A DNA stretch of 39,417 nt from Bacilli bacterium (GTDB lineage: Bacteria; Bacillota_I; Bacilli_A; RFN20; CAG-288), in contig JAFUFH010000038.1 in the NCBI GenBank assembly GCA_017470005.1, positions 1 through 39,417 on the forward strand, read 5' to 3'. The notes below the pieces were generated by a model that saw only the letters and a program-made list of their open reading frames with translations, was not told the origin of the DNA and did no database searches. Both the position numbers and the translations under genes were made by a program. Shown in pieces: positions 4,287 through 35,076 of this stretch (position 1 is the first letter of the stretch; every line of letters begins with the position of its first letter).

Positions 4287-6566
4287 TCAAAGTTTGCGTG
4301 TGAATTGAACTGTTTCTACCCAATGTGGAGTTTTGTTTTCGTGAGTGAGGTTAATGATATCTTGTTCGGCATCATAGGTGAAAGAGATGCTGTATTTATC
4401 ACCTTCATAAGTATAAGTTCCATTATTTTCTGTGAAGGTAACGGATAAGCCACGATAAGAACCCGTGAGATCGTTATTGATTACTAGCGTAACGTCTTCG
4501 GAACCGGTAACTTCACCTCCTTCGTCATAAGCTGGCATAATGGTAGTCCAGTTACCGGCGAAGGGAAGCTCCTCCTCCACGGGAGTGAAGGTAGGTTCAA
4601 CGATGAGATATTTGGTACTGGAATTCTGAGGAGCATAGGCCCAGAAATCAACGTTGATCTTGATCTTCTTTCCTTCTTCGGTTTCAACAATCTTCTCCGC
4701 AACGACATTTGCATGTTGGCCATCGAAGGGAGTTGTGATGGTGTAACCGGCAGCAGTCAATCTGGCCTCATAGCTAGAGAAGATGTCCCCATAGAGAGCA
4801 AGAACAGGATACTGGAACTGAATGATGTCGCTGGATTCAGGATCGGCTTCATCCTTTGCTGCGGCATACAGACCAGCATAGTTGTAATATCCGCCGATGG
4901 TGGGGACTTCAAGCAGGAGATCTTCCGAACCGGCGATTTCAACAGCTACATCGTAGTAGTCCATTCCGTAGCAGAGATCATACCAAGTGAGATCATTACC
5001 ATTACCGACGACTTCCGCAGGTCTTTCTGTTTTCTGGATGTCGTAATACATCAATTCATAGACAGAGTTGCCATAATAGGCATCAAGGACAATTCCTTCT
5101 TCTTGGATCTGGATTTCGAGTCTGTCGATGTCCATGGTGGAGCCATAGGTCAGATAGCCCATATCAAAGTCGGTGGTCATTCCAGGAACCAGGGCAGAAA
5201 CAGTGTCATAGTCAAAGACATAGCTTTCTGTGGTTTCATCATAAGTGAAGAATTTGGAGGAGATATTAAAGTCAAGGATTTCTTTGGTCACCTTTGTGGT
5301 GGGATATTCATCATAATAGAAGTTGTCGCCGACCATGGTGTATTCCTGCTGAAGTAAGAGACCGCTCTGGGTTTGACCAATCTGGAAGCACTTGGGGTTT
5401 TTGGCGAGGTTATAATCTTCATCCATCACATAAGAGAGGACAAGACCATTGACAGAATATTCCTCAAGCATTTCTTCAGTGACAGGTTCGGCTTCAGGAT
5501 CTTCAGGATTGAAGGTGAGCTTGGCACCGGTAACGCTGTAATTGGCACCGGCAAGAGCGGCAAAGGCATTGTCGAGGTCAGCGATAGAATCTCCCTCGAT
5601 GGGTTTGACTTCCTCGACTTCGACATCTGCGCCATAAGCGACAACATCATAGACGAATTTCTGCCAAGTATCACCATAGAAACCAGTTTCATCGGGTTGA
5701 TAACTATAAGCATCGATAGAAACAATATGATAACCATCGGTGACGAAGGTTAAGGTGTTCAAAGGATAATTGCCAACAGAACCATAAAGGAAGTCAACAA
5801 CCTTGGAAGTAATACCATCATAGTATTCTTTTAATTCATCATCACCTTCGGCTAAGGCATCAAAGTCAGCAGTGAAAGCATATAAGCCTTCTCCTTCACC
5901 TTCTCCAAAGTAATCTTCATCGGCAACGAAGTCAGAAGCAGAGATACCATCAAAGATAGCGCTGAATCCCGTGTCAGCCCAAGCATAGTAAGAGCCATCA
6001 GAGAAGGAGAAAGGATGTTGTTCATGAACTTTGTTATCTAAACCTAAGGTGACAACAGCAGTCTTGTCTTCATAGGTGACTTCTTCTTCAGTTTCAGGAT
6101 CTATCTCGGTGAAAGGCTGAGCTTTCTGGAAGTACATAGAAGTGAAGTGTTCAGGATCTTTAAATCCGGTGGTTTCACCAGTCTCCTCATCGACAATTTC
6201 TTCTAAGTCAGCATAGGTAGAATAATAGTATTCGTTATTACCAGCGAGTTCATAAAGTTCGTACCAGCCCATTTCATAATCGACGAAATAGGTTTGAACG
6301 ATACCTTGGAGAGCTAAGCCACCTTTGAGTTCGGCAACCATTTCCTTGGTGAGAGTGTCAGAAGGATTAGCAGTGGTTTCTTCAGGGGTAGTCTCTTCAG
6401 GGGTAGTCTGCTCTGGAGTGGTTTGATCTGTAGTAGCACCAGTGTCAGTTGTTGCTGTATCAGCAGTAGTAGCAGGAGTAGTAGCAGTATTTGTCGTAGC
6501 TTCACCACCGCAAGAAGCGAGTAAGGCTAAGGCAAATAAAGAGGTTAATAATCTAGTCTTTTTCAT
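4287..6566 (-). CDS. Large acidic lipoprotein with Thr/Pro/Glu linker (copy 1)
   Basis: A 759-aa surface lipoprotein of unknown function. The signal peptide ends in the lipobox LLASC with C19 as lipidated residue, followed by a low-complexity Thr/Ala/Pro/Glu linker (about residues 24-67) and a long Asp/Glu/Tyr-rich body. The body shares blocks with the neighbour at 6891-8888: LTKEM near the linker, YPTTKVTKE, NDLTWYDL and GGYYNYAGLYA. This copy alone has an extra C-terminal domain of about 90 residues (from AGNWTTI to the end) containing ISFTYDAE, which also occurs near the end of the unrelated-looking lipoprotein at 17738-18697. A 15-bp tandem repeat in the linker coding DNA could change linker length by slippage. 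The acidic, aromatic composition suggests an extracellular binding or substrate-capture role, but no known family is recognised. Confidence 0.85.
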   Translation of the reverse strand: MKKTRLLTSLFALALLASCGGEATTNTATTPATTADTATTDTGATTDQTTPEQTTPEETTPEETTANPSDTLTKEMVAELKGGLALQGIVQTYFVDYEMGWYELYELAGNNEYYYSTYADLEEIVDEETGETTGFKDPEHFTSMYFQKAQPFTEIDPETEEEVTYEDKTAVVTLGLDNKVHEQHPFSFSDGSYYAWADTGFSAIFDGISASDFVADEDYFGEGEGEGLYAFTADFDALAEGDDELKEYYDGITSKVVDFLYGSVGNYPLNTLTFVTDGYHIVSIDAYSYQPDETGFYGDTWQKFVYDVVAYGADVEVEEVKPIEGDSIADLDNAFAALAGANYSVTGAKLTFNPEDPEAEPVTEEMLEEYSVNGLVLSYVMDEDYNLAKNPKCFQIGQTQSGLLLQQEYTMVGDNFYYDEYPTTKVTKEILDFNISSKFFTYDETTESYVFDYDTVSALVPGMTTDFDMGYLTYGSTMDIDRLEIQIQEEGIVLDAYYGNSVYELMYYDIQKTERPAEVVGNGNDLTWYDLCYGMDYYDVAVEIAGSEDLLLEVPTIGGYYNYAGLYAAAKDEADPESSDIIQFQYPVLALYGDIFSSYEARLTAAGYTITTPFDGQHANVVAEKIVETEEGKKIKINVDFWAYAPQNSSTKYLIVEPTFTPVEEELPFAGNWTTIMPAYDEGGEVTGSEDVTLVINNDLTGSYRGLSVTFTENNGTYTYEGDKYSISFTYDAEQDIINLTHENKTPHWVETVQFTRKL
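6381..6410 (-). repeat. 15-bp tandem repeat in lipoprotein linker
   Basis: TTCAGGGGTAGTCTC (6381-6395) is followed by TTCAGGGGTAGTCTG (6396-6410). It is in frame and encodes repeated ETTPE units of the Thr-rich linker, so gain or loss of a unit would change length by five residues without a frameshift. Confidence 0.8.
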
Positions 6567-6821
6567 AAGAATAAGGACTCCTTTCGAATATGGAAATAAA
6601 TATAAGGCATGTATTCATTAACTTTCAATATTTTTTTAAATCCATTTTTAAAATAAACTTGAAAAAATTACTGTTTTTTTAGCAAAATAGTACAATTTTC
6701 TATAAAAAAATGAACCTTTGCAAAATTTGAAACCCCTTACAAAAGGACTAGAGTTTACATTAGGAGTTAATTTGTAACCTTAAAAAAACCTTGAAATATA
6801 ATTAAATTCTTTTAAATATAA
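6567..6821 (-). promoter_or_regulatory. Promoter and leader of lipoprotein copy 1
   Basis: On the minus strand a -35 TTGAAA (6628-6623), an 18-base spacer and a -10 TATATT (6604-6599) lie upstream of an AAAGGAGT ribosome site about 10 bases before the ATG at 6566. The leader and the signal-peptide DNA are nearly identical to those of copy 2. The rest of this AT-rich gap holds no gene that I can support. Confidence 0.6.
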
Positions 6822-6874
6822 GAAAAACTACGGATTGCTCCGTAGTTTTCCATATTCAAGGAGTTAACCTTCAA
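6822..6874. repeat. 53-bp perfect repeat, copy 2, containing a bidirectional terminator
   Basis: Identical to 4234-4286. Its ACTACGG/CCGTAGT hairpin lies just 3' of the second lipoprotein (stop at 6891), separating its transcript from the promoter of copy 1. Confidence 0.85.
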
Positions 6875-6890
6875 ACAAGAGAATCAGTTA

Positions 6891-8888
6891 TTACTCAACG
6901 TCGTTAACACTAATAACAGGGTTGATGATGAAGTAATAATTCTTCTGTGAATCTTGAGCGACGAAGAAAGCAACTTGTAAATTGTAACTTGTACCTTCAA
7001 TCTCCACGGCTAAGTTACCGATAACTCGCCAAGGATCATCCTCATTTGTAGGATCATATCCATCAATAATGGTGTATCCAGCCTCTTCTAATTTGCCTTG
7101 ATAAGTAGTAACAGCAGAATCGATAGCAGCAACAGATAAAGAACCAGATCCTAATTTATATTGGATTTGAGTAGTACCTTTTGCATCTGCATAAAGGCCA
7201 GCATTGTTGTAATATCCACCAAGAACAGGAACCAAATCTAAGACATCTTTTCCACCGACATTGGTTAAAGCTTGTTCGTAATTTGTCGAACCAGAAAGCA
7301 AGTCATCCCAAGTTAAATCGTCACCATTGAAAGCAAACATCTCAGCATCATACTCAGGATCACCGATATTGTAATAATAGATATCTAAGTAATCGTTGTA
7401 GTTGGCATCATAGAATTCCACAAAGACTTCACCCTCTTCCACGGTGATAGCAAGTTGAGTGAATTCCCATTCGTAGGAATAGCTGAAAGCAAGAGAGGTG
7501 AAATCAGCATCTAATCCAGGGATAGTAGCAAGAGCGGCTTCATAATCGAAGAGATAAGTTCCTTCTTCATCTTCGACTGGGGTGAAGAAGACAGAAGAGA
7601 TACCGAAACTAGTAAATTCCTCGGTAACTTTCGTGGTAGGAAGATCATTATAGTAGAAGGATCCACCAATGAAGGTATAATTCTGTTGATAAAGGGTTTC
7701 ATTGTATTCCATCAAAGTGAAACCAAAGCCATCTTCACTGCCCTCTTCATTATAGGTGAGACTGAAAACATGATTTCCTAATGCGAATTCTTCAGCCAAA
7801 GAATAAGGATAATAATCTTCTAAATCTTCATCGTATTCAAGCCACATGGCTTCAGCATTATAAACATTGTTTCTCAAAGAGGCTAAAGCAGCTTCCAATT
7901 CAGGAATGGTTTCGCCTTCCACTTTCTTCACTTCTTTCACTTGAACATCATCACCTAAAGCGACGACATCATACATGAAGGTCTGAGAGAAGGCGCCATA
8001 GAAATCATCTTCGGTAAAGCTATAAGCTTCTAATCCGACAATATTGAATCCATCGGTGATGAGAGTAATACGGTCTAAAGGATAATTTCCAATAGAAGCG
8101 TATAAGACGTTAGCGATCTTAGAGGTTAAATCATCATAATAAGCGATGACTTCTTCATCCTCTTCTTCGGGATCCATAACCCAAGTGAAGGCATAAAAAG
8201 TTTCTTCATCTAAATCATCTTCGAAGAATTCTTCGTCGGCTTCAAAGTCAGAGGCTTTAAAACCATCAAAGAGAGAAGCAAAACCAGTTTCCGCATAATC
8301 GAAATATTCATAAGTGTCGAAACTGAAAGGATGTTGTTCCGTTAGTTCGTTATCTAAGCCTAAAGAAACAAGAGCGGTCTTTCCTTCTTGTAAGCCATCC
8401 TCATCTTCAAAGGGAGTAGCTTCTCTATAATAACCTGTGTGATTTAAAGTTTCAGGGAAAATAGGATCTCCAGTTTCCTCATCTTCTTCCACATCGCCCC
8501 AGGCGAAGGATAAACCAACATTGTTTGCTTGGATAGAATATTGTTCTAACCAGCCCATTTCAAAATCTTCATAATAGGTGGAGACAATACCTTCAAAAGC
8601 GACACCAGCTTTCAACTGAGCAAACATTTCTTTGGTCAATTGGTCACTAGGTTCCGGTTCAGGAGTGGATTCTGGAGTAGTTTCTTCAGGGGTAGTATCT
8701 CCTGTTGTCGCATCAGGGGTTGTGTCTCCTGTGGTTTCAGGAGTAGTATCACTAGCACCAGTGTCAGTCGTAGCCGTATCTGCAGTAGTTGTACCAGGAT
8801 TGGTAGCAGTATTTGTCGTAGCTTCACCACCGCAAGAAGCAAGTAAGGCTAAGGCAAATAGAGAGGTTAATAATCTAGTCTTTTTCAT
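6891..8888 (-). CDS. Large acidic lipoprotein with Thr/Pro/Glu linker (copy 2)
   Basis: A 665-aa paralogue of the preceding lipoprotein. Its first 28 or so residues are the same (signal peptide, lipobox LLASC with C19, then GGEATTNTAT), followed by a Thr/Pro/Glu/Asp linker to about residue 80. The ATG at 8888 is chosen because AAAGGAGT lies 10 bases upstream; an in-frame ATG 42 bases earlier would put a charged stretch before the signal peptide and would overlap the promoter. The body is Asp/Glu/Tyr-rich with the blocks LPTTKVTEE, DDLTWDDL and GGYYNNAGLYA shared with copy 1. It lacks the extra C-terminal ISFTYDAE domain. Outer parts of the two bodies have diverged far more than the signal-peptide DNA, suggesting the 5' end has been homogenised. 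Function unknown; probably displayed on the cell surface. Confidence 0.85.
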   Translation of the reverse strand: MKKTRLLTSLFALALLASCGGEATTNTATNPGTTTADTATTDTGASDTTPETTGDTTPDATTGDTTPEETTPESTPEPEPSDQLTKEMFAQLKAGVAFEGIVSTYYEDFEMGWLEQYSIQANNVGLSFAWGDVEEDEETGDPIFPETLNHTGYYREATPFEDEDGLQEGKTALVSLGLDNELTEQHPFSFDTYEYFDYAETGFASLFDGFKASDFEADEEFFEDDLDEETFYAFTWVMDPEEEDEEVIAYYDDLTSKIANVLYASIGNYPLDRITLITDGFNIVGLEAYSFTEDDFYGAFSQTFMYDVVALGDDVQVKEVKKVEGETIPELEAALASLRNNVYNAEAMWLEYDEDLEDYYPYSLAEEFALGNHVFSLTYNEEGSEDGFGFTLMEYNETLYQQNYTFIGGSFYYNDLPTTKVTEEFTSFGISSVFFTPVEDEEGTYLFDYEAALATIPGLDADFTSLAFSYSYEWEFTQLAITVEEGEVFVEFYDANYNDYLDIYYYNIGDPEYDAEMFAFNGDDLTWDDLLSGSTNYEQALTNVGGKDVLDLVPVLGGYYNNAGLYADAKGTTQIQYKLGSGSLSVAAIDSAVTTYQGKLEEAGYTIIDGYDPTNEDDPWRVIGNLAVEIEGTSYNLQVAFFVAQDSQKNYYFIINPVISVNDVE

Positions 8889-9165
8889 AAGAATAAGGAC
8901 TCCTTTCGAATATATGGAAAAAATATACAAGAACTGAAAATAACTTACAAATCAAGTTGAAATGTAAATTTACGGTATTTATCCATTTTTTTGCCATATT
9001 TTAACAAATTTTACATAAAACTCTTATAAAAATGCAATTTTCTCATTTTTGAAAGCTCTTCCAAATTTTAGTAAAATGTAAGCAAAACAATCACTTTTCT
9101 TTTAAAAGTATTTAAATTTTAAATTTTTCAATCTTTTTTATAAAAAACAATTCGTTATATTGCAT
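8889..9165 (-). promoter_or_regulatory. Promoter and AT-rich spacer of lipoprotein copy 2
   Basis: On the minus strand a -35 TTGTAA (8950-8945), a 17-base spacer and a -10 TATATT (8927-8922) precede the shared leader with AAAGGAGT. The rest of the gap is very AT-rich and shows no gene. Confidence 0.55.
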
Positions 9166-15869: not shown

Positions 15870-17333
15870 ATGAATAAGAAATTAGTCTTAATGACGTCTG
15901 CTCTTATGGCTGTCTCTCTTTTCGCGGGATGCGGGGAAAAACCACACTCTCACGAATACAAATTAGTTGATGAAGTTGCTGCTACTTGTACTGAAAGTGG
16001 TGTCCACGCTCATTATACCTGCGAAGGATGTGATAAGTTATTTGATGCAGACAAAAACGAAACTACATTAGATGCTTTAACAATCGCAGCTTTAGGCCAT
16101 AATTACCAGTTCGACTCATTCGTTTGGGCCGACGACTATTCTGCACAGGCGAAATACATCTGTTCCCGCGACAATAAGCACATCGATATGCATGATGCGA
16201 CAGTCACTAGCACAGTCACGCAAGATGCGACCTGCGAGGAAGATGGCGCCAAAACCTATACAGCGACATATGATGGTCATACTGAGACAAAAGAAATTGT
16301 ATTGTCTAAATTAGGTCATGCATATGGTGACCCTACATACGAATGGAGTGAAGACAATAAAACTTGCACTGCTACCGTGATTTGCGGAAATGATTCAACT
16401 CATACAATCGTAGAGACAGTTGATAGCACTTATAAAGTATTAGAAGATGCAACAGAAGAAGCAGATGGAAAAGGCAAATATACCGCAACATTTGAAAATG
16501 AAAAATTTGTAGCTCAAGAAAAAGAAGTTGCTATTGAATCGCTTCCTACATTAGACAAATTGACTTTTACTAGAAATGGGGATGGTACTTATTCTGTTAA
16601 AAGTAAAGATAGCGATATTACTGGCAGAGTAAAAATTCCATCAACATATGGTGAGGGTGAAGCAGAAGGTATTGTTACAGCGATTTCAAATGAGGCTTTC
16701 TTTGGTGCTGATGAATTCACTGAAGTGTTTATTCCAAGCACCATTAAAACCATTGGAGAAAACGGTTTTTATAGATGTGAAAAAATGACAGATGTTCATT
16801 TTGCAGAAAATAGTGCTTTAGAAAGCATTGGAGATTACGGTTTCCAAAGATGTTTTGGATTAGTGTCGGTTACTTTTCCAAAATCAGTTAAAACACTTGG
16901 CCGACGAGTTTTTGATGAATTAAATAATCTTGAATCGGTTGTTTTTGAAGAAGGTAACGAATTAGAAAGTATTGGCAATGGGTGCTTTTATGGCTGCCCA
17001 AAATTAAAAACAATCCAGTTTGCTGAAACAAGTAAATTTACAGTAGTTGATTATACATTCCACGAATTGGGCGCTTTAGAAGAACTTGATCTTCCAAATT
17101 CAGTTGAAACTATTACATCTTATAGTATTCGTGCATGCTCTTCATTAAAAACATTATGGCTTTCAAAAGGATTTAAAACCATGGAAGTTTATTCTATTGA
17201 TGAGTGCCCTATTGAAAATTTAAATTTCAAAGGCACTATGGAAGAGTGGAATAAAATAAGCAAGGAAAATAACTGGGCTTATCAAATTGCAACTAGTGTT
17301 GTTCACTGCACTGATGGCGATGTTACTATTTAA
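15870..17333 (+). CDS. BspA-like leucine-rich-repeat surface lipoprotein
   Basis: A 487-aa lipoprotein. The signal peptide carries the lipobox FAGC (C21). Residues about 28-75 form a Cys-containing module (ATCTESG, then YTCEGCDKLFD), followed by further modules of the type DATCEEDGAKTYTATY and YEWSEDNKTCTATVICGNDSTH up to about residue 220. Residues about 250-460 are BspA-type (LRR_5) repeats with the recurring pattern IGxxxFxxCxxLxxVxFP and the typical family ending with CTDG. Such proteins mediate adhesion or protein binding in gut bacteria. The DNA around 16110-16260 is visibly GC-richer, with GCC, GAC and CGC codons, than the AT-rich repeats that follow, suggesting the gene is a mosaic. 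Its start module, promoter and terminator are shared with the next lipoprotein. Confidence 0.8.
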   Translation: MNKKLVLMTSALMAVSLFAGCGEKPHSHEYKLVDEVAATCTESGVHAHYTCEGCDKLFDADKNETTLDALTIAALGHNYQFDSFVWADDYSAQAKYICSRDNKHIDMHDATVTSTVTQDATCEEDGAKTYTATYDGHTETKEIVLSKLGHAYGDPTYEWSEDNKTCTATVICGNDSTHTIVETVDSTYKVLEDATEEADGKGKYTATFENEKFVAQEKEVAIESLPTLDKLTFTRNGDGTYSVKSKDSDITGRVKIPSTYGEGEAEGIVTAISNEAFFGADEFTEVFIPSTIKTIGENGFYRCEKMTDVHFAENSALESIGDYGFQRCFGLVSVTFPKSVKTLGRRVFDELNNLESVVFEEGNELESIGNGCFYGCPKLKTIQFAETSKFTVVDYTFHELGALEELDLPNSVETITSYSIRACSSLKTLWLSKGFKTMEVYSIDECPIENLNFKGTMEEWNKISKENNWAYQIATSVVHCTDGDVTI

Positions 17334-17737: not shown

Positions 17738-18697
17738 ATGAAAAAGAAATTAGTCTTAATGACCTCATTTCTAATGACTTTTAGTCTTATTGCAAGCTGT
17801 GGAAATAATCCCACAACTGAACCACCTGCAACAACAACTAGTGAAACAACAACTGTGTCTCAACACACTCATCAATGGGGATTAATCTCTTACACATGGG
17901 CAGAGGATAATACCAAATGTACTGCAAAAAGAGTCTGTACTGAGGATAGCACTCATGTAGAAGAAGAAACGGTTAACACCACTTATGAAGTAGTTACTGA
18001 AGCAAAATGCGAAGAGGATGGAAAGGGTAGATATACCGCCGATTTCACCAGCGAAGCCTTCGTTGATCAAACCAAGGACATCATTTTAGAAGCCATTGGC
18101 CATGATTTAACCGCTCATGATGCTCATGGCGAAACATGTACGGAAGCAGGCAATAGTGCTTATTGGAGCTGCGAAAGATGTGGCAAATTCTTCTCTGATG
18201 CCGAAGGAAAAAATGAGATTGAAAACGGTAGTTGGATCATTCCAGCTCATCACACCTTAACTCATCACGAAAGAAAAGAAGCAACTCGCCTTGAAGATGG
18301 CAACATCGAATATTGGTCTTGTGATGTCTGTGAAAAATATTTTTCTGATGAAGAAGGCAAAAACGAAATAAATGCCGAATCTATAATCATTCCAGCATTA
18401 GGAACCGATAAGACCTATTTTAATGGAACGTACTGGCTTGATTCTAGCTTTGAATATGTTCTTAACTTTATCACTAATAATTTTTCTGATTATGATATTA
18501 ATTACGAATATTATTTTAGTAGCTTCGATTATGATGATGAAACAAAAGAGCTTTCATTTATTATAACTCGACTTGAAAACATGGTTGAGGAATCTTCTTC
18601 ACCATATAAAGTTGGTGACAAAATCTCCTTTACATACGACGCAGAAAATGAAGCTTTGATGTTTGGGACAGTCAAACTTTCTAAGCGACAAAACTAA
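17738..18697 (+). CDS. Modular Cys-rich surface lipoprotein
   Basis: A 319-aa lipoprotein with signal peptide MKKKLVLMTSFLMTFSLIASC (C21), almost the same as that of the BspA-like gene upstream (NKKLVLMTSALM). After a short Thr-rich linker come modules also found in that protein: YTWAEDNTKCTAKRVCTEDSTH, then EEDGKGRYTADF. Two Cys pairs of the form WSCERCGKFFSDAEGKNEI and WSCDVCEKYFSDEEGKNEI follow (about residues 145-225); CxxC spacing could bind a metal or form disulfides. The last 85 residues have no repeats and contain ISFTYDAE, also seen near the end of the large lipoprotein at 4287-6566. No leucine-rich repeats are present. The gene looks like a recombined relative of its neighbour. Function unknown, probably cell-surface binding. 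Confidence 0.75.
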   Translation: MKKKLVLMTSFLMTFSLIASCGNNPTTEPPATTTSETTTVSQHTHQWGLISYTWAEDNTKCTAKRVCTEDSTHVEEETVNTTYEVVTEAKCEEDGKGRYTADFTSEAFVDQTKDIILEAIGHDLTAHDAHGETCTEAGNSAYWSCERCGKFFSDAEGKNEIENGSWIIPAHHTLTHHERKEATRLEDGNIEYWSCDVCEKYFSDEEGKNEINAESIIIPALGTDKTYFNGTYWLDSSFEYVLNFITNNFSDYDINYEYYFSSFDYDDETKELSFIITRLENMVEESSSPYKVGDKISFTYDAENEALMFGTVKLSKRQN

Positions 18698-19590: not shown

Positions 19591-19596
19591 TATAAT
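19591..19596 (+). promoter_or_regulatory. -10 box of the envelope operon, predicted leaderless
   Basis: TATAAT (19591-19596) ends five bases before ATG 19602, so transcription would begin at or within one base of the start codon. No Shine-Dalgarno site exists. Confidence 0.55.
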
Positions 19597-19601
19597 TAAT
19601 C

Positions 19602-21893
19602 ATGAAACAAAAAAGCTTGAACATCATCTCTCTATCTCTTCTCTCTCTTTGCCTGATGGCCCCAGGTAGTCTTTTTGTTGACGAAAAAGAAGTGATCAAT
19701 CCTGTCGTTCATCACATCCGTTATGATGATGAAACTTATGATTCCAAATATATTCTCTCTCCTATCACTACTACAACTTTAAATCCCAATTCCTATTACA
19801 TCATCGTCAATCCTACTTATGTGTATCGTAGTTCTGCCACAACGGAAGCACCTTCCTATGAACAAACTGGTGCTGCGGCTTATTGCACAGATTTTGAGAC
19901 TGGATATGGTAATTGTGTGGTTTTTGATTTTGTTGATTTCCAATCTAAAACCATCGATATCCGTGAGCTTGGTGCTCATGCAGGTGGATGTATTCATCAA
20001 TATGTGGAAACCACCATGCAAGATCCTTTTACTTCCGAAGCTAACATCAAAACCTATCGTAATTTTTATAGTTTATCCAAACTTTCCTATCTTTATGGTA
20101 ATTCCAGTTACCATAGCATTGTTGCGTCAGGATATAGCAATATCGAAAACTCTACCACTTGGACCATCTCTTCTAAAAAAGAGAACAATATTCCTATGTT
20201 CTCTTTCTATGATCCGGTAGATTCTTTCTATTTCTATGCTCAGAATAGTGATTATATCTTTGAAAATGGTCAACCGAGGATGAATTATTCTACCGAAGTA
20301 GCTGAAGAAGTGACTGACTTTTCCTTATACCATTATATTTATGAAGTCTCTGAAACCTTAGTCAATGAGCTCACTTTTGCTGGTGCTGCAAAAACGATGG
20401 CTACCTCTAGTGATAGCCAAGTGAGATCTCTATTTACTTCTCTTCCTTCTTATAGTAGAGAGCGTTTTGTGGAGTTTTATAACAACATGGAAGCGGGTTC
20501 TGATACTTCTAGTGATACGGTTCATTCCGCATACTATTCCAGTGTTTTAGCAGGGGTAAGAAAATACCAAGAGCTCTATGAAGCTGATTTTACTCCGGAA
20601 GATATCTCTAATGATGTCGTAGTTAATTATGAGAAAGGTGTGATTGAAGGTTTCTCTCCTTTTGAAAAGAAGATTAGCCTTGTCTATACGGAGAATGAAG
20701 ATGAAGTGATCAATGTTTACGATCCTATCGATAATCTCATGAGCGATGAATACTGCATCAATAATGAGAAGACAAAGAATCGTAAGATCTTCTTAAAGAA
20801 TTCGGATATGGACCTCTATGGAAAGAGTATTTCACTCTATTATGGAGATTATCAAGACTATCCGGAACTTTCTTCTAAGAATCCTTTAGTTTTAACTGTT
20901 CAATCCTTGGATACCTCTTCTTATGTGGTAGGTTCTTTACAGGTAGACACCTTAGTTTCTGGTGGAGAAAATGTCAGCTATATCTTAGATGGGGAAGTCC
21001 ATTTGAAGCAGATTGGCGAACTTGGCGATTATGAATATGCTCTCGCCGATCAGGAACTCTATGAACTTTGGGAGCCTTATGATCAACACGCCAATACCAA
21101 TAAGCTTGTCTTCCAAGAGAGTCCTGTCTTTACTCAATATGTCACTTTGGATGGATTGATTGACATTCACCAAGAAAGTACTATGATGGCTTTCATTCGT
21201 AAAAAAGGAAAAAATGGTGTCACTTCTCCTGTCTTAGAATGCATACAAGGCATTTATGCTGTCAATGATAACGATGGCTATGTCCTTCGTATGAATACGC
21301 TCAACGAAGAGCTTTATTCTACTTATTCCACGGAATATCAAGATGTTTATCAAACTCTTGCTAGCGATGAACATTTTGCCATGTTTAATCTTGAATCCAT
21401 CGAAAGCAGTGTAGAAGATTCTATCGCTGGCCTTTCTAGCAAAGAATCTGCTACAGGTATCCTTACTCCGGAAGGATTAGAAAAAGAATATGTGGGTAAA
21501 ACCTATATCCATTCTACGATTGCCCAATCTTACATGGATGCCTATTCCCTCAATCAAACTACTAGAAGCTTAAATACCAAGGATGATTTGATCCAATTCT
21601 TATCATCTTATGAAATTGATTATTCTTTATCCATAGAAGAAGTCATTGCTTCTATTGATTCTATTTTTTCTTCTTATGAGAACAAATTAGAAGAAGGAGC
21701 AAACATTGATACGCTCTGTCAAAACTTCATCTCTTACTTCAATGAAGTGTTAGCTTCTCATCCTACTCTCTCCTCTACTTTGTGGGAGCATTTTAACGAG
21801 AATTATTCTCTCATCCACAATAGCACCACTTTAGCGCAAGCCAATACAAATTATCAAACTGCCGTCAGTAATATCGAAGGATTACTTGGTTAG
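19602..21893 (+). CDS. Large secreted protein of unknown function, first gene of the envelope operon
   Basis: A 763-aa protein with an N-terminal signal peptide (KQK, then the hydrophobic IISLSLLSLCLMAPGSLF); no lipobox follows, so it is probably released or held by partners. Residues about 50-330 include three or four cysteines (YCTDFETGYGNC, GGCIHQY), possible disulfides, and many Tyr/Ser/Asp residues. The middle (350-560) looks beta-rich, and the C-terminal 200 residues are helical (LSSYEIDYSLSIEEVIASIDSIFSSYENKLEE). I recognise no domain. It ends one base before the next gene, which has no good ribosome site of its own, so the two are probably translationally coupled. This implies joint function with the single-pass protein and the MscS channel downstream, probably at the cell envelope. 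Confidence 0.75.
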   Translation: MKQKSLNIISLSLLSLCLMAPGSLFVDEKEVINPVVHHIRYDDETYDSKYILSPITTTTLNPNSYYIIVNPTYVYRSSATTEAPSYEQTGAAAYCTDFETGYGNCVVFDFVDFQSKTIDIRELGAHAGGCIHQYVETTMQDPFTSEANIKTYRNFYSLSKLSYLYGNSSYHSIVASGYSNIENSTTWTISSKKENNIPMFSFYDPVDSFYFYAQNSDYIFENGQPRMNYSTEVAEEVTDFSLYHYIYEVSETLVNELTFAGAAKTMATSSDSQVRSLFTSLPSYSRERFVEFYNNMEAGSDTSSDTVHSAYYSSVLAGVRKYQELYEADFTPEDISNDVVVNYEKGVIEGFSPFEKKISLVYTENEDEVINVYDPIDNLMSDEYCINNEKTKNRKIFLKNSDMDLYGKSISLYYGDYQDYPELSSKNPLVLTVQSLDTSSYVVGSLQVDTLVSGGENVSYILDGEVHLKQIGELGDYEYALADQELYELWEPYDQHANTNKLVFQESPVFTQYVTLDGLIDIHQESTMMAFIRKKGKNGVTSPVLECIQGIYAVNDNDGYVLRMNTLNEELYSTYSTEYQDVYQTLASDEHFAMFNLESIESSVEDSIAGLSSKESATGILTPEGLEKEYVGKTYIHSTIAQSYMDAYSLNQTTRSLNTKDDLIQFLSSYEIDYSLSIEEVIASIDSIFSSYENKLEEGANIDTLCQNFISYFNEVLASHPTLSSTLWEHFNENYSLIHNSTTLAQANTNYQTAVSNIEGLLG

Positions 21894-21894
21894 T

Positions 21895-24423
21895 ATGAAC
21901 GAGATCGATTATACCAATACCTCCCTTACCACGAAGGACAGAAATGATATCGGAGATGAATTCAACGTCGAATACTTGTCTAACACTCAGTCTAACGCTG
22001 GGGAGAGGGTTTTAAAGTACTCTAAAAACCAAGCAGAAGAAGCGGTGAAAGAACAAGCCGTAAAAACGGTAACAGCACCAAGTCCTGTAGCAGTTACTAG
22101 CGGTGTCACCGCTGGTGCTGTTGTTGTTGTTACCGCCGTCATTTATACTTCTCTTTTAGGTAACAAATTTGTCTTAGTGGACAATTCCCTTGCTTTGAAT
22201 CCTTATAAAGATTGGGAAACCAATGAAGTATTTTTAGATTATTCTTTTGATATTCAATATGATCGAATCGGTTCCGTTTTTGTCAAGATGATTGCTCCTG
22301 GTGAAAACCTTTCCTCAGAACCTTATGTCTTAGAATACGATGTAGATATGCCAGAAGAGATGGAAGGAGAGGTAGAAAGTGATGAACCCATCAAAAAAGA
22401 GAAAGTTATCCTTACTCAACATATCTCTGGAACATTCGCTTCTCTGAGGGAAGGAAATGATTACACCTTTGCCATCACTTCTTTCATCGATAACACCGAA
22501 TCTACCGTTTATACCCAAAAAGTTCATATTCCTTCTTCTTACGCTGTTGTTTATGAAGGAAGTTATGAATTATATGAAGAAGAAGGGGTGTTATCTCTCT
22601 ATTATTCCTTCCCGATGGAATATGAACAAGAGATGTTTGCTTATGTGCAATTGAAACGTTTCACAGAAGAACAAACCTATGTCATTGAACAAGAGAGTGA
22701 AAAACAATTGCTCCCTGCTAGAGAGAATCCAACCCAAGATGATGTCTTCTTCTTAGAAGGAGAATTCAAAAATCTCTTTAAAGATGAATACTATACCATC
22801 TCTGTCATCTGTGAAAACCAAGGCAATATCTTCACCCCTTATTCACAAGAATTCTATTCCTATATAGAACCCGATATTCCTCCCGAACCAGAAGAATACC
22901 ATGTCACTTTCGCAGAAGAGGCCTATGTCGACTTCCAGATTGAAGAGGGAGAATTAAATCTTGCTTATCTCTTCCAACTCTTCGTTCCAAAAGAAGCGAC
23001 ATTGAGATTGAATCTCTACGATGAAGATACTTCTCAATTATTGATGGATGAGGATTACTTCTATTCTCCTTTAGAGGATAGCCAAGTCTTAGAAGGTAAT
23101 TATCCTGTTCAGGGTGGTAAGAATTATCGGCTCGCTTTATCTGCAACTATCGATAATAAAGAAGAGCTTCTCTTTGAAAATACGTATATCTATTCTGAGT
23201 CTTATGGCTATATCGATGAAGATAACACGAATATTGAAGCCATTACGTACACGAATATGGATGGAGTTGTAACTCATAAATTGAATGTCTCACTCTCCTA
23301 TTATTGTTCTCTTACCGTTCATTCTCTCTACATGAAAGTCTACAACGTCAATCAAGCCTTATTAGCGGAAGAATCTCTGGCGGTAGATTTGATTCCAACG
23401 GAAGAAGTTCTTCACACACAAATCGATAAGACCTTCACACTGGATCAACCTGGTCCGTATCGAGTAGAAATCTATCAATATGTCTACGATGAAGAATTGA
23501 TCTATCAAACGGAAATCGAAGAAGTAGAAGCGCAAGCTTATGATGTCAATGAAGATAATCTTCACGCCAGTGTCATCACTCAAGATGGTGTTGCAAAGAT
23601 TGCGATTGAATTTGCTAGTGAAGATACAAGAGCTGGTCATATCCAATATGAGATCACAAAGCTCAGCGATAACACAATTCAAAACACTCCCTTGCTAACC
23701 ATCGAGGAAGCTAGTTATTACGAATTCGATCTATGCGATGTCACAAGCGATTACACGTTGAAAGTTTACTCGATCATCACAGAGAACGTTCTTGTCTATA
23801 CCACACAGGTAGAAACAGACGGTATCTATGCAGAATATGATGAGGACTTCCACATTCAATCTCTCAATACTGGTTCTGGAATGGTTTATTCTTATTCCTT
23901 CCAAATCATGCCTGAACTGACTTGTCAAGCTTATGTAGATATCAGGGAAAATTATAGCATTTTCTACTCCTCAGATGTCTTAGAAATCACTTATGAAGAA
24001 GGTGGTACGATCAGCGGAGAGAATATCTCCTTAGAAGAAGGTAAAACTTACACCTTTACCAGTTACGCCTATTGGGGAAGAGAATTCTTAAAACTCACTT
24101 CTCAAGAATACACGGCAACTTCGTATGGTATCCATGTCGATGAAGATTCTGTCACTCACGATTATGAAGCAGAAACCTTAACCGTTCCTTTCACTCTCAA
24201 CGATTCCTTTGGATACTTGAGTGAATTAGAAGCAAGTGTTTCTATCTTAGGAACAGATGGTAAGACAAACACTTATCTAGGTACTCTCGTAAATTCTAGC
24301 TTTGTTTTCTCTGTCGAGGGTGCAACAAAAGGTATCGCCGCAGAGTTGATCATCAAAGCTCAAGATTCACAAAATAGCAGTCAAACAAAGACCACATTTG
24401 TCCATATCGCCATTTGGTATTAA
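21895..24423 (+). CDS. Single-pass membrane protein with repeated beta-rich ectodomains
   Basis: An 842-aa protein with a 60-residue polar N-terminus, one transmembrane helix at about 65-87 (Ala/Val/Gly-rich, AGAVVVVTAVIYTSLLG) and a roughly 750-residue extracellular part. That part consists of about seven segments of near 95-105 residues with a shared pattern: alternating hydrophobics, then a strand ending YTF or YTI or YRL, which suggests fibronectin-III- or Ig-like folds (for instance GNDYTFAITSF, DEYYTISVIC, GKNYRLALSA, GKTYTFTSYA). No sortase or other anchor is seen, so the N-terminal helix is the anchor. ATG 21895 lies one base after the previous stop without a Shine-Dalgarno site, so initiation by coupling is likely. 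Function unknown; the MscS gene follows 13 bases later. Confidence 0.75.
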   Translation: MNEIDYTNTSLTTKDRNDIGDEFNVEYLSNTQSNAGERVLKYSKNQAEEAVKEQAVKTVTAPSPVAVTSGVTAGAVVVVTAVIYTSLLGNKFVLVDNSLALNPYKDWETNEVFLDYSFDIQYDRIGSVFVKMIAPGENLSSEPYVLEYDVDMPEEMEGEVESDEPIKKEKVILTQHISGTFASLREGNDYTFAITSFIDNTESTVYTQKVHIPSSYAVVYEGSYELYEEEGVLSLYYSFPMEYEQEMFAYVQLKRFTEEQTYVIEQESEKQLLPARENPTQDDVFFLEGEFKNLFKDEYYTISVICENQGNIFTPYSQEFYSYIEPDIPPEPEEYHVTFAEEAYVDFQIEEGELNLAYLFQLFVPKEATLRLNLYDEDTSQLLMDEDYFYSPLEDSQVLEGNYPVQGGKNYRLALSATIDNKEELLFENTYIYSESYGYIDEDNTNIEAITYTNMDGVVTHKLNVSLSYYCSLTVHSLYMKVYNVNQALLAEESLAVDLIPTEEVLHTQIDKTFTLDQPGPYRVEIYQYVYDEELIYQTEIEEVEAQAYDVNEDNLHASVITQDGVAKIAIEFASEDTRAGHIQYEITKLSDNTIQNTPLLTIEEASYYEFDLCDVTSDYTLKVYSIITENVLVYTTQVETDGIYAEYDEDFHIQSLNTGSGMVYSYSFQIMPELTCQAYVDIRENYSIFYSSDVLEITYEEGGTISGENISLEEGKTYTFTSYAYWGREFLKLTSQEYTATSYGIHVDEDSVTHDYEAETLTVPFTLNDSFGYLSELEASVSILGTDGKTNTYLGTLVNSSFVFSVEGATKGIAAELIIKAQDSQNSSQTKTTFVHIAIWY

Positions 24424-24436
24424 AGGAGGATACATC

Positions 24437-25573
24437 ATGGCTAATAAAGATTCTAAAAAGATCACATATCTTCCCCGCATCATTGCAGGTTCTATTCTCA
24501 TTATCTTATTTGTTGTCATTCTAATTCTATCCATCGTGATGCCAGGTTCCATCTTTGCCAATTGTATGTCCTTGATTGGAAGAACAAGTTATCTTGGCGT
24601 AGATTTCATGAATATCTTGGAGAGATTGCTTGGTACAGTTTATTACTTTGCTCTCTTCATCGGATTAGAAATCATCATCCGCTTGATCATCGATATCGCC
24701 ACCAATCAAGCCAACAATAAAGTCAAGACCATCTCTAGATTGATCGGTTCTACCATCAAATATGGATGTTCTCTTGTCTTCTTATTCCTCGCTTTGACTC
24801 TCTGGGGTGTCGATACTACCGCTTTGCTTGTCTCTGCTGGTATCATCGCTCTCGTCATAGGTCTTGGTGCCCAGTCCCTCATCTCCGACATCATCGCTGG
24901 TATCAATATCGTTTTTGAAGGCGAATATCATGTTGGTGATGTGGTCTTCATCGATGGTTTTAGAGGAACCATTGAAGAAATCGGTTTGACTCTCACCAAG
25001 ATTGTCGATGCGGGTGGAAACCGTAAATGCATCAATAACTCTAAGATTTCTACTGTGGTCAACCTTTCTAGCGATGACTCTTTAGCGATTGTTGTCTTCT
25101 CTATCGAATATAGTGAAGATTTAAGAAAAGTAGAGAAAATCTTTGCCGATAACAAAGAAAACATCCGCAAAGAAGTTCCCGAATTGTTAGAAACTCCTCG
25201 CTATTTAGGTGTTGATGCTCTCAGCGCTTCTTCTGTCGATTTAAAGTTTGTTGCTAAGGTCAATGAAGGTGACCGTTTCTCCGCTCAAAGAGCTCTCACT
25301 CGCGCCTTGTATCTCATGTTTGCGGATAACGGAATCTATGTACCTTATAATCAATTGGTCTTGTCTACTCGTAAAGATGGTTCCTATCAAAGCGATGTCT
25401 TAACTTCAAAAGCTGCTCCTGTTGAGAAGAAAGAAGAAGTCATCGAAGCTACTTTAGTCCAAGAAGAAAGCGTCGCTGAAGCACAAGAACAAGAAGAACT
25501 CTCTAGTGAGGAAGAAGTGAAAACCGTAGAAGAGAATCAAACTCCTGCGGAAAGTAGTGAAGTCAACGAATAA
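24437..25573 (+). CDS. mscS: MscS-family mechanosensitive ion channel
   Basis: A 378-aa channel that would open under membrane tension and release solutes on osmotic downshock. Two or three hydrophobic helices (about 12-40, 58-82 and 103-125) precede the pore helix and conserved junction ALLVSAGIIALVIGLGAQSL, followed by the beta domain (GDVVFIDGFRGTIEEIGLTLTKI) and the mixed C-terminal domain. The last 60 residues are a Glu-rich tail unlike E. coli MscS. AAAGGAGG sets ATG 24437. As third gene of the operon behind two extracellular proteins, it may act as part of a membrane-tension or cell-envelope system rather than only as a general osmotic valve. That link is inference from operon layout. 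Confidence 0.9.
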   Translation: MANKDSKKITYLPRIIAGSILIILFVVILILSIVMPGSIFANCMSLIGRTSYLGVDFMNILERLLGTVYYFALFIGLEIIIRLIIDIATNQANNKVKTISRLIGSTIKYGCSLVFLFLALTLWGVDTTALLVSAGIIALVIGLGAQSLISDIIAGINIVFEGEYHVGDVVFIDGFRGTIEEIGLTLTKIVDAGGNRKCINNSKISTVVNLSSDDSLAIVVFSIEYSEDLRKVEKIFADNKENIRKEVPELLETPRYLGVDALSASSVDLKFVAKVNEGDRFSAQRALTRALYLMFADNGIYVPYNQLVLSTRKDGSYQSDVLTSKAAPVEKKEEVIEATLVQEESVAEAQEQEELSSEEEVKTVEENQTPAESSEVNE

Positions 25574-25590: not shown

Positions 25591-25614
25591 AAGCCTCCTT
25601 ATTGGGGGCTTTTC
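25591..25614 (+). terminator. Terminator of the envelope operon
   Basis: AAGCCTCC (25591-25598) pairs with GGGGGCTT (25604-25611), followed by TTCC. Confidence 0.75.
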
Positions 25615-25650
25615 CTATGATTTTAGGTTTTAAAAAGAAGGCATTTAGAG

Positions 25651-25656
25651 TATAGT
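25651..25656 (+). promoter_or_regulatory. -10 box of the first acyltransferase gene, predicted leaderless
   Basis: TATAGT (25651-25656) ends six bases before ATG 25663, so +1 should be the A of the start codon. The -35 is weak and there is no Shine-Dalgarno site. Confidence 0.5.
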
Positions 25657-25662
25657 ATTGGT

Positions 25663-26490
25663 ATGACTTTATCTTTAATTTTATTAGTGCTATCTATCAC
25701 TGGAAGCTTATTGACTTACTTTTTGACCGGAATCTATCAAGATATCGCCTTCTTATGGCTTCCTTTTGTTTTAATCATCGCTTATTTTGTCGGGCTTCTA
25801 CTCGCTCAAAGTTTTATCACCTTCTTCATCGCCTTATTTGTCAATGTCAAAAAAGAACAGAAGAAACCGAATCCTTTCTTCAACTTTGAGATTCGAAATA
25901 TCTCTCAAGTCTTCTTGAAGATGTGTTTGATCAAAGTACATGTGAAGGGAAAGGAATTGCTTCCGGAAAAGAAAAAGAACAACGCTTTTGTCGCCGTCAC
26001 CAATCACATCTCCAATTTTGATCATCTTGTCACCATGCAAGTCTTCCATCGATACAAAGTCGTCTCCATCTCCAAACCCGAGATGGAAAAGGTTCCTTCT
26101 ATCGGAGGAGTACAACATAAGGCTGGCTTTATCACGATCGATAGAGATAACGCCATGAGAGCCATGAAAGCTGTGCGTAAATCCATCAATTTCATCAAGA
26201 ATGATTACGCCTCTATCACCATTGCTCCTGAGGGTACCAGAAGCAAAGATGGTCTCTTAAAAGAATTCCATCCGATGACCTTCATGATCGCCACCAATTC
26301 GAAATGTCCTTTAGTTGTTGTCTCTATCAAAAATACAGATAAAGTCAAAAAGAATTTCCCCTTCAGAATCACTCATGTTTATGTCAATATCGTCAAAGTA
26401 TTCTATCCCGAAGATTATGAGAATATGTCCACCAAGGATTTAGCGCAACTTTCTCACGATCTCATCGCAAAAGATTTAGGACAATTGTAA
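25663..26490 (+). CDS. plsC: 1-acyl-glycerol-3-phosphate acyltransferase family protein (PlsC-like)
   Basis: A membrane-bound 275-aa acyltransferase, predicted to add the second acyl chain to lysophosphatidic acid in phospholipid synthesis. The NHISNFD motif (114-120) supplies the catalytic HX4D, and EGTRS (190-194) is the glycerol-phosphate binding motif. Two hydrophobic N-terminal helices (4-22 and 30-60) anchor it. It is followed by a second HX4D protein 45 bases later, which has its own -10 box. Of the two this is the canonical PlsC because its motif II is intact. Confidence 0.85.
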   Translation: MTLSLILLVLSITGSLLTYFLTGIYQDIAFLWLPFVLIIAYFVGLLLAQSFITFFIALFVNVKKEQKKPNPFFNFEIRNISQVFLKMCLIKVHVKGKELLPEKKKNNAFVAVTNHISNFDHLVTMQVFHRYKVVSISKPEMEKVPSIGGVQHKAGFITIDRDNAMRAMKAVRKSINFIKNDYASITIAPEGTRSKDGLLKEFHPMTFMIATNSKCPLVVVSIKNTDKVKKNFPFRITHVYVNIVKVFYPEDYENMSTKDLAQLSHDLIAKDLGQL

Positions 26491-26517: not shown

Positions 26518-26528
26518 TTTGATATAAT
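26518..26528 (+). promoter_or_regulatory. Extended -10 of the second acyltransferase, predicted leaderless
   Basis: TG-A-TATAAT (26520-26528) predicts transcription starting at 26535, one base before ATG 26536. A possible -35 TTGTAT (26498-26503) lies 19 bases upstream. No Shine-Dalgarno site is present, and an upstream in-frame TTG at 26503 lies within the promoter. Confidence 0.6.
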
Positions 26529-26535
26529 AAGGTCT

Positions 26536-27402
26536 ATGGCATTTGATCCAAAATGTGTAAAGTTTCCCTATGGGGAAATCACTGATCAGCATTACCTTCC
26601 TGTGGAAAGAATTGAAGATATCACTTTTGATGAGAATTATCCTTTTTATGATACTTCTAAAAAATTCCAGCGAAAACAAAGATGGGTTCGTTTCCTTTTA
26701 AGAACCATCGTCTTTCCTTTGACTCGCATTCGTTTGAATTTGAGAGTGAAGGGAAGAGAGAATTTAAAGCTTTATCAACAGGAATTATCCAATGGTTATA
26801 TCACCGTGTGTAACCATGTTCACATGTGGGATTATCTTGCCATTTTATTGGCCTTGAAAAGAACCAATGTCTCTTTCCTTTCTTGGCCTGAGAATGTCAG
26901 AGGAAAAAGTAGAAAGCTTGTTCGCCTCGTCGGTGGTATACCCATTCCGGAGGAAAAAGGGCCTGGCTTTTTAAAATGGTATAAAGATACGATATCCTTC
27001 TTAAAGAATGGTGGAGTCTTACACATCTATTCGGAAGGTAGCATGTGGGAATTCTATCAACCCATCAGACCATTTAAAGAAGGTGCCGCACACTTTGCTC
27101 TTAAGGCAAATAAACCCATCCTTCCTCTTGCCTTCTCTTACAGAAAGAATGGATGGATTCGAAGCAAGATCTTCCATTCCCCCGCTTCTTTTACGATCTC
27201 TATCGGTAAACCTATCTTCCCAAATCAAGATTTACCACTAGCGGAAGCCAAACTTGCTTTAACGAAAGAAAGCCATGAAGCGGTATGTAGACTTGCCTCT
27301 ATCGATCCTAAGGAAAACCTCTATCCTCCTATCTTTGAAAACAACAAAAGAGTGGATTATTATTCGACAACCTATGGCAAAGGATATAAAAACTCTTTTT
27401 AA
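26536..27402 (+). CDS. PlsC-like acyltransferase with variant second motif
   Basis: A 288-aa protein of the PlsC/LPLAT superfamily with NHVHMWD (93-99, HX4D) and SEGSMWEFYQPIRPFKEGAA (166-185). The usual EGTR is replaced by EGSM, so phosphate recognition may differ and the acyl acceptor may not be lysophosphatidate. The first 45 residues are polar (PKCVKFPYGEITDQHYLP) and only one hydrophobic helix (about 52-68) is visible. Similar paralogues occur in Firmicutes next to PlsC. Its role could be remodelling of glycolipids or other lipids, but the substrate is unknown. It is monocistronic or partly cotranscribed with the preceding gene. Confidence 0.75.
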   Translation: MAFDPKCVKFPYGEITDQHYLPVERIEDITFDENYPFYDTSKKFQRKQRWVRFLLRTIVFPLTRIRLNLRVKGRENLKLYQQELSNGYITVCNHVHMWDYLAILLALKRTNVSFLSWPENVRGKSRKLVRLVGGIPIPEEKGPGFLKWYKDTISFLKNGGVLHIYSEGSMWEFYQPIRPFKEGAAHFALKANKPILPLAFSYRKNGWIRSKIFHSPASFTISIGKPIFPNQDLPLAEAKLALTKESHEAVCRLASIDPKENLYPPIFENNKRVDYYSTTYGKGYKNSF

Positions 27403-34057: not shown

Positions 34058-35064
34058 TACAGCAAGAAGATTCCTTTTTCCGAGGCGTCTTGAATGTCTT
34101 TTTGATCCCAGATAGAACACTGGACTTCACCGATGTGGGCTTTATCGAGGAAGAACATACAGATACGAGACTGTCCGATACCTCCACCAATGGTGTAAGG
34201 TAATCTTTGATGTATGATATCTTGAACATAAGGAGAGTCTTTTCCTTTCTCTTCTTCGTTCATGTAGCGCATCTGTTTGACCAGGGAGTCTTCATCCACA
34301 CGGATTCCCATAGAGGAAAGCTCTAAGCCGATATCTAAGATTTTGTCGTAGACTAAGATATCGCCGTTTAAATTCCAATCGTCATAGTCAGTCGCTCTAG
34401 AATCGTGAGGTTTACCATCTTTTAAAGGCCATCCGATTCCGTAGAGGAAGACAGAGCCATATTTTAAGCAGATGGCTTTTTCTCTCTCTTTTCTTGTGAG
34501 ATTAGGATACATCTCTTCTAATTCTAAGGTAGAGACAAAATGAATCTCAGGAGCAAGCTTTTTTTCTAAGCAAGGGAAGAGTTCCCCGATATCCTTTTCA
34601 ACTTTCTTTAACGCTTCATAGACTTTTCTGACCACGGAGAAGAGAGTTTCTAAAGTTCTTTCTTCCTTAGCGATGATGACTTCATAATCCCACTGGTCGA
34701 CATAAATGGAGTGGATATTGTCTAACGTGGGTTCATCTTTACGGATGGCGTTCATATCGGTATAGAGTCCTTGATGCATATCCATACCGTATTTCTTCAA
34801 GGCCATTCTCTTCCATTTGGCAAGAGAGTGAACGATTTCGATCTGGTCGTCTAAAAAAGGAACTTGAAAGGAAACGGGAGTTTGGGATCCATCTAAGCCA
34901 TCGTTAAGACCGCTTTTTTTGTTGACAAACAAAGGGGCGGAGACTCTCATGAGATTGAGATTGTTGGCTAAGGCTTTTTGGAATCCATCTTTGACTTTTT
35001 TGATGGCGAATTGCGTATCTTTGACGCTCAATTTACTTTGATAGTGTTCAATGGGATAAATCAT
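34057..35064 (-). CDS. asnA: Aspartate-ammonia ligase (asparagine synthetase A)
   Basis: Converts aspartate, ammonia and ATP to asparagine. The 335-aa protein has the class II synthetase-like fold with typical AsnA segments: VSAPLFVNKKSGLNDGLDGSQTPV (residues about 40-63), SIYVDQWDYE, DSRATDYDDWNLNGD (about 218-232) and GGGIGQSRICMFFLDK near the end. Its length is standard. The start at 35064 has a TTTAAT box four to seven bases upstream and no Shine-Dalgarno site, so the mRNA is probably leaderless. It is a monocistronic unit. No nearby AsnC-type regulator is seen. Confidence 0.95.
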   Translation of the reverse strand: MIYPIEHYQSKLSVKDTQFAIKKVKDGFQKALANNLNLMRVSAPLFVNKKSGLNDGLDGSQTPVSFQVPFLDDQIEIVHSLAKWKRMALKKYGMDMHQGLYTDMNAIRKDEPTLDNIHSIYVDQWDYEVIIAKEERTLETLFSVVRKVYEALKKVEKDIGELFPCLEKKLAPEIHFVSTLELEEMYPNLTRKEREKAICLKYGSVFLYGIGWPLKDGKPHDSRATDYDDWNLNGDILVYDKILDIGLELSSMGIRVDEDSLVKQMRYMNEEEKGKDSPYVQDIIHQRLPYTIGGGIGQSRICMFFLDKAHIGEVQCSIWDQKDIQDASEKGIFLL

Positions 35065-35068
35065 GCGT

Positions 35069-35076
35069 ATATTAAA
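35069..35076 (-). promoter_or_regulatory. -10 box of asnA, predicted leaderless
   Basis: On the minus strand TTTAATAT (35076-35069) gives a start site at or near the A of ATG 35064, depending on whether TTTAAT or TAATAT is the hexamer. Confidence 0.45.

Follow-up and report, generated by a model that had tools for sequence, protein, structure and literature searches.

A single-pass ectoprotein encoded beside one clade of MscS channels in bacteria and archaea

Textbooks treat bacterial mechanosensitive channels as the standard example of channels gated by nothing but the lipid bilayer, and in other bacteria MscS is gated by bilayer tension only. The MscS proteins of E. coli and T. tengcongensis have been studied as stand-alone homoheptamers. 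In the large MscS paralogues MscK, MscM and YbiO, N-terminal extracytoplasmic domains are fused to the MscS core in the same chain. Here we describe an MscS-family gene of a Bacilli bacterium that lies beside a gene for a separate single-pass membrane protein, the partner. No description of this channel-partner pair was found in the open-access literature, the closed literature may hold one, and no Pfam or NCBIfam family matched the partner. The recurrence of the pair suggests a type of channel not yet described, whose partner protein extends beyond the cell.

The window analysed is the whole of contig JAFUFH010000038.1 (assembly GCA_017470005.1; 39,417 nucleotides, forward strand), and its relevant features are listed in Table 1. 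Direct reading gave three same-strand open reading frames, P0001, P0002 and P0003, with intergenic gaps of 1 and 13 nt, exactly as an earlier note on this DNA had claimed. That note was also right that gene 2 lacks a ribosome site of its own: none lies at a usable distance upstream of P0002, whose translation depends on its neighbour. P0002 starts at the ATG at 21895, with an alternative TTG upstream at 21886. The operon promoter is a putative one because its -35 element is poor. Direct reading revealed no ribosome site before the ATG of gene 1 and, given the TATAAT box immediately upstream, this gene may be leaderless. The terminator that had been placed after gene 3 corresponds to a hairpin that is present, but only of moderate strength (GCCUCC/GGGGGC stem followed by four U; fold z -2.2; weak match in the terminator search), so that termination here is plausible, not strong.

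Table 1. Features of the three-gene operon and its flanking signals (window coordinates).
Feature	Position	Strand	Basis or remark
TATAAT box, probable operon promoter	19591..19596	+	6/6 match; 5 nt before gene 1 ATG
Gene 1, P0001, secreted protein, 763 aa	19602..21893	+	signal-like N-terminus
Gene 2, P0002, single-pass ectoprotein, MscS partner, 842 aa	21895..24423	+	homologues L053, L054, L055
Cytosolic N-terminus of P0002 (62 residues)	21895..22086	+	acidic-aromatic motifs IDYTN, DEFN, VEY
Transmembrane segment of P0002, Ala/Val/Gly-rich	22087..22152	+	residues ~65-86
P0002 ectodomain, seven beta-sandwich domains	22153..24420	+	AlphaFold strands; PDB fold matches
AGGAGG ribosome binding site, gene 3	24424..24429	+	direct reading; 7 nt before P0003 ATG
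Gene 3, P0003, MscS-family channel, 378 aa, acidic C-terminal tail	24437..25573	+	Pfam/NCBIfam matches
Intrinsic-terminator-like hairpin, moderate	25591..25616	+	downstream of gene 3

Four genes of the window without a ribosome site carry TATAAT-like boxes 5-7 nt from the ATG, at 19591-19602 (plus strand, 6/6 matches), 25651-25663 (plus, 5/6), 26523-26536 (plus, 6/6) and 35064-35076 (minus, 5/6); leaderless mRNAs may therefore be common in the host lineage. Elsewhere in the window, two large minus-strand genes (4287-6566 and 6891-8888) have a near-identical 5' leader, ATTCGAAAGGAGTCCTTATTCTT, before the ATG, pointing to paralogy or to duplication of the leader. Upstream of the operon, two lipoprotein-like secreted proteins with similar signal sequences are encoded at 15870-17333 and 17738-18697, the former with BspA-type leucine-rich repeats.

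The assignment of gene 3 as a mechanosensitive channel with an acidic tail was borne out. P0003 matched MS_channel_2nd (E 8.6e-14, 51.8 bits, cut-off 20.2) and MS_channel_1st (E 2.1e-8, 34.4 bits, cut-off 23.1), and fell slightly below the cut-off of 21 for MS_channel_3rd (20.2 bits). Hydropathy peaks lie at residues ~7-26, 62 and 101-121; N-terminal helices precede the pore helix, and there is no long fused extracytoplasmic domain. The nearest solved structures were 3udc and 3t9n (E 1e-32, aligned over residues 92-312), which we take to be the MscS of Thermoanaerobacter tengcongensis. Many channels of the clade to which P0003 belongs carry a tail motif, A..F...QK..S.G.EE (alignments A2 and A3), a candidate docking site; P0003 has the acidic tail instead. 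One clade channel from the same genus (locus L035 in genome G009, 6173-9142, minus strand) continues in frame upstream into two sensor-like regions flanked by transmembrane segments. They look Cache-like by eye and have no Pfam match, and the stretch holds masked bases and upstream stops. A fusion of partner and MscS genes was considered for L035 and rejected, the N-terminal part consisting of these sensor-like stretches and not of fibronectin type III (Fn3) domains.

Gene 2 had been described as a single-pass protein with about seven beta-rich ectodomains, and P0002 has one transmembrane segment and, in its AlphaFold model, seven beta-sandwich units (moderate confidence, mean pLDDT 66). Searched against the PDB, the model resembled tandem Fn3 and MG proteins, including four-domain fibronectin 3t1w, gp130 and the MG domains of A2M, with the low global TM-scores expected of flexible domain strings. 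P0002 alone gave no fn3 match and no other Pfam or NCBIfam match above cut-off; sub-threshold matches of P0001 and P0002 (DACND, DUF960) were rejected as below cut-off. Across the partner family a cytosolic N-terminus of 40-130 residues is followed by an Ala/Val/Gly-rich transmembrane segment and an ectodomain that varies greatly in sequence and in length (~95 to ~1450 residues). The transmembrane and juxtamembrane part is the most conserved stretch (alignment A5). Among 48 partners the N-termini contained 100 [DE][FY] pairs where shuffling predicted 42.5; 46 of the 48 had at least one, typically as EFN or EYN. Lys and Arg were about three times as frequent before the transmembrane segment as after it (125 vs. 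44), from which the positive-inside rule predicts an N-in, C-out topology. Gly, Ala and Ser made up 38% of the partner segment, compared with 20% of the channel's own TM1. A profile of the 48 first ectodomains (A7) matched fibronectin 1fnf (E 4.4e-13), and 8 of the 48 members had an fn3 match in Pfam. By these profile matches, the membrane-proximal domain is predicted to be fibronectin-III-like across the family.

Plain sequence searches of 98 related genomes, including 14 of the same genus, returned no relative of P0001 or P0002. Orthologues of P0003 were found there at about 35-48% identity, and directly upstream of nearly all of them lay a same-strand single-pass protein whose N-terminus is short and polar and whose ectodomain differs greatly in length and sequence. 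We therefore rejected the view that P0001 and P0002 are orphan genes: neighbourhoods anchored on MscS reveal a partner nearly every time, and the apparent orphan status is due to fast divergence. The P0002 homologues of L053, L054 and L055 have 32-37% identity.

The MscS alignment, run against 84,980 species genomes, yielded 482 relatives, and the loci of the best 80 of these 482 were read. Nine loci cut by contig ends were set aside, leaving 71 informative ones. A strict automatic test demanded a transmembrane segment, an acidic-aromatic pair before it and more than 80 ectodomain residues. Loci rich in G+C, where open reading frames called in the antisense frame had hidden partners, were re-read from stop to stop. 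A partner was adjacent to MscS on the same strand in 68 of the 71 informative loci, in 63 of them by the strict test; in the remaining five (L057, L095, L109, L112 and L128) it narrowly missed one criterion or the gene was cut. No partner was present in L104, L114 and L124, and L045 and the distant L051 provided further channels without one. Of the 490 other neighbours on the same strand in these loci, 16 passed a comparable test. Related genomes also supplied 20 MscS genes belonging to other subfamilies; none of these had a partner, one of them (L133) having only ~0.5 kb of upstream sequence, and in a tree of 119 channels these 20 controls were set apart from the partner clade by a branch with support 100. 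The arrangement is thus far beyond chance.

The association also survives changes of gene order. In one Bacilli clade (L057-L061, L071 and L107) MscS comes first and the partner follows 19 nt later, and in two Clostridia (L118 and L131) the partner is likewise downstream; the link therefore does not depend on a fixed gene order. Pairs occur in Bacilli, Clostridia, Anaeroplasma and Methanomassiliicoccales archaea, among them dozens of gut bacteria and the cultured Anaeroplasma bactoclasticum ATCC 27112 (L130). All seven archaeal loci found carry a partner (L076, L081, L091, L099, L116, L121 and L123); they are titled Methanomassiliicoccales, Methanomethylophilaceae or other Thermoplasmata, and most are metagenome bins. 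Six of the seven archaeal channels group together in the channel tree, in a single supported clade that lies within Clostridia. This placement fits a joint transfer of both genes, to be taken with caution because most of the loci come from such bins.

The place of gene 1 is far more variable. P0001, announced as a large secreted protein, does begin with a hydrophobic signal; no transmembrane segment follows, and mixed beta domains precede a C-terminal helical bundle. Its structure model was poor except for helical residues ~650-760, and it had no Pfam or NCBIfam match above cut-off. Full-length homologues occupy the same operon position in L053 (31% identity) and L055 (29%), and a weak one in L036 (20% identity; C-terminal match with E 7e-4 in a single comparison), so that the three-gene unit recurs in these loci, in L036 weakly; L054 lacks a secreted gene of this type. 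Outside the closest relatives the upstream place holds unrelated large surface proteins or nothing. Seven loci (L038, L075, L079, L082, L099, L100 and L101) encode surface proteins of 952-2964 aa just upstream of the partner, their genes ending near its start, and these proteins have a C-terminal beta module and membrane helices in common. The module reads WGIV.N..MPGG ... TEFEG.Y.V.ILLP ... DGKYLEFTT.HFSEF ... membrane helices. The giant protein of L101 had no Pfam match, and the third gene of L130 encodes an unrelated protein of 3017 aa. The variability of this place shows that the ectoprotein-MscS pair is the core and the large surface protein a recurring but optional third part. The earlier note had held that separation of MscS from both upstream genes in most relatives would speak against a three-gene set. 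For the ectoprotein this separation is not seen; for the secreted gene, confined to its closest relatives, it is half true. The part of the earlier reading that joined a surface apparatus to the channel as a functional unit is well supported by the retention of the pair.

The draft genome of the host, a gut bacterium (1.93 Mb, 91% complete), yielded no Mur ligase and no transpeptidase domain in searches that were positive in 12 and 10 of 14 control genomes, respectively, and no penicillin-binding transpeptidase was found in any of 15 genomes of its genus. The host cell is therefore probably wall-less, with the ectodomains probably bare on its membrane, and together with its genus it probably represents a Bacilli lineage lacking walls. 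Wall loss was rejected as a general reason for the pair, because 11 of the 32 genomes that carry a partner also encode transpeptidases; among relatives there was no clear link either, 4 of 22 genomes with a clade channel having a transpeptidase, vs. 14 of 37 without the channel.

Retention of the pair across an inversion and two domains of life, its specificity for one MscS clade and its combination of a channel with a receptor-like single-pass protein bearing cytosolic motifs are best read as a channel with an accessory subunit. We regard it as moderately probable that the partner serves as an ectodomain subunit, anchoring or tuning the channel, by way of a presumed physical complex and effect on gating. 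The shared N-terminal motif, transmembrane composition, orientation and Fn3 domain next to the membrane count in favour of this reading. The flexible cytosolic N-terminus with its repeated E-[F/Y]-N motifs, the partner helix, rich in small residues and able to pack against channel helices, or both, would dock on the channel at putative sites. The ectodomains, together with the gene 1 product or the other large surface proteins of relatives, would connect the channel with the cell surface layer or with adjoining surfaces; load on the surface, or binding, would then anchor the channel or tune its opening. Several points speak against the subunit reading. The cytosolic motif is variable and so is the MscS tail, P0003 being without the tail motif common among its relatives. 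L045, L104, L114 and L124 are partnerless, so that a channel of this clade can evidently dispense with a partner. The gating of MscS in other bacteria by nothing but bilayer tension is a further point against it.

Conserved adjacency can also reflect shared regulation only. The channel would then be an ordinary emergency valve and the ectoprotein an independent part co-expressed with it under envelope or osmotic stress, a possible but less probable explanation. The common operon promoter, the ordinary MscS core and the enormous variation in ectodomain length and sequence agree with it; it is at odds with the specificity for one MscS clade, with retention through gene inversion and in archaea, and with the N-terminal motif and membrane-proximal Fn3 domain that the partners share, which exceed what an arbitrary surface protein would be expected to conserve. 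A stronger version of the subunit reading, which we hold to be rather unlikely, is that Fn3-repeat tethers carry external force or contact to the MscS pore in a receptor-coupled 'force from tether' device. Such a device would extend across Bacillota, wall-less Mollicutes and methanogenic Thermoplasmatota, for the most part from animal guts. It is improbable that the Fn3 string binds a ligand or a host or neighbour surface and that binding rather than tension controls whether the channel is open or closed: the quickly evolving ectodomains (95-1450 aa) resemble a binding surface under diversifying pressure and the L035 channel is fused to sensor-like regions, but that gene has its masked stretch and stops, and the ligand is purely hypothetical. 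Highly improbable is a partner that mainly holds gene-1-type proteins on the cell while MscS protects the membrane at the anchoring points, as most loci have no third gene and yet the pair persists, even though genes for large surface or secreted proteins are repeatedly found directly upstream (L053, L055 and L036, the 952-2964-aa set and L130) and surface proteins of a host showing no peptidoglycan genes need membrane anchors.

A conserved, separate ectodomain partner in two domains of life would make these loci a natural place to seek tethered or receptor-coupled prokaryotic channels, a question that is directly testable. The pair also offers a function to seek in large, sequence-diverse, unnamed surface proteins that are orphans to ordinary homology searches.

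Compared with described systems, P0003 has the same core as the MscS of T. tengcongensis (3udc/3t9n) and E. coli, namely TM3, beta-domain and cytosolic part, and differs from them in being encoded with a dedicated membrane partner. With MscK, MscM and YbiO it shares the combination of an MscS core and an extracytoplasmic part; the N-terminal fusion of the MscK/MscM type is absent, P0002 and P0003 being separate genes with their own stop and start, and the extra part is a single-pass Fn3 protein. The membrane-proximal domain of the partners matches Fn3, as in fibronectin type III surface proteins (PF00041), whereas the coupling to a channel gene is unusual and P0002 itself escapes the Pfam model. 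The likeness to the tethered channels of animals (TMC with PCDH15/LHFPL5, NOMPC, and MEC-4) lies only in how they work, with ectodomain repeats or tethers near a mechanosensitive channel; the channels are not homologous, and in the MscS pair the association is genomic alone and the tether role putative.
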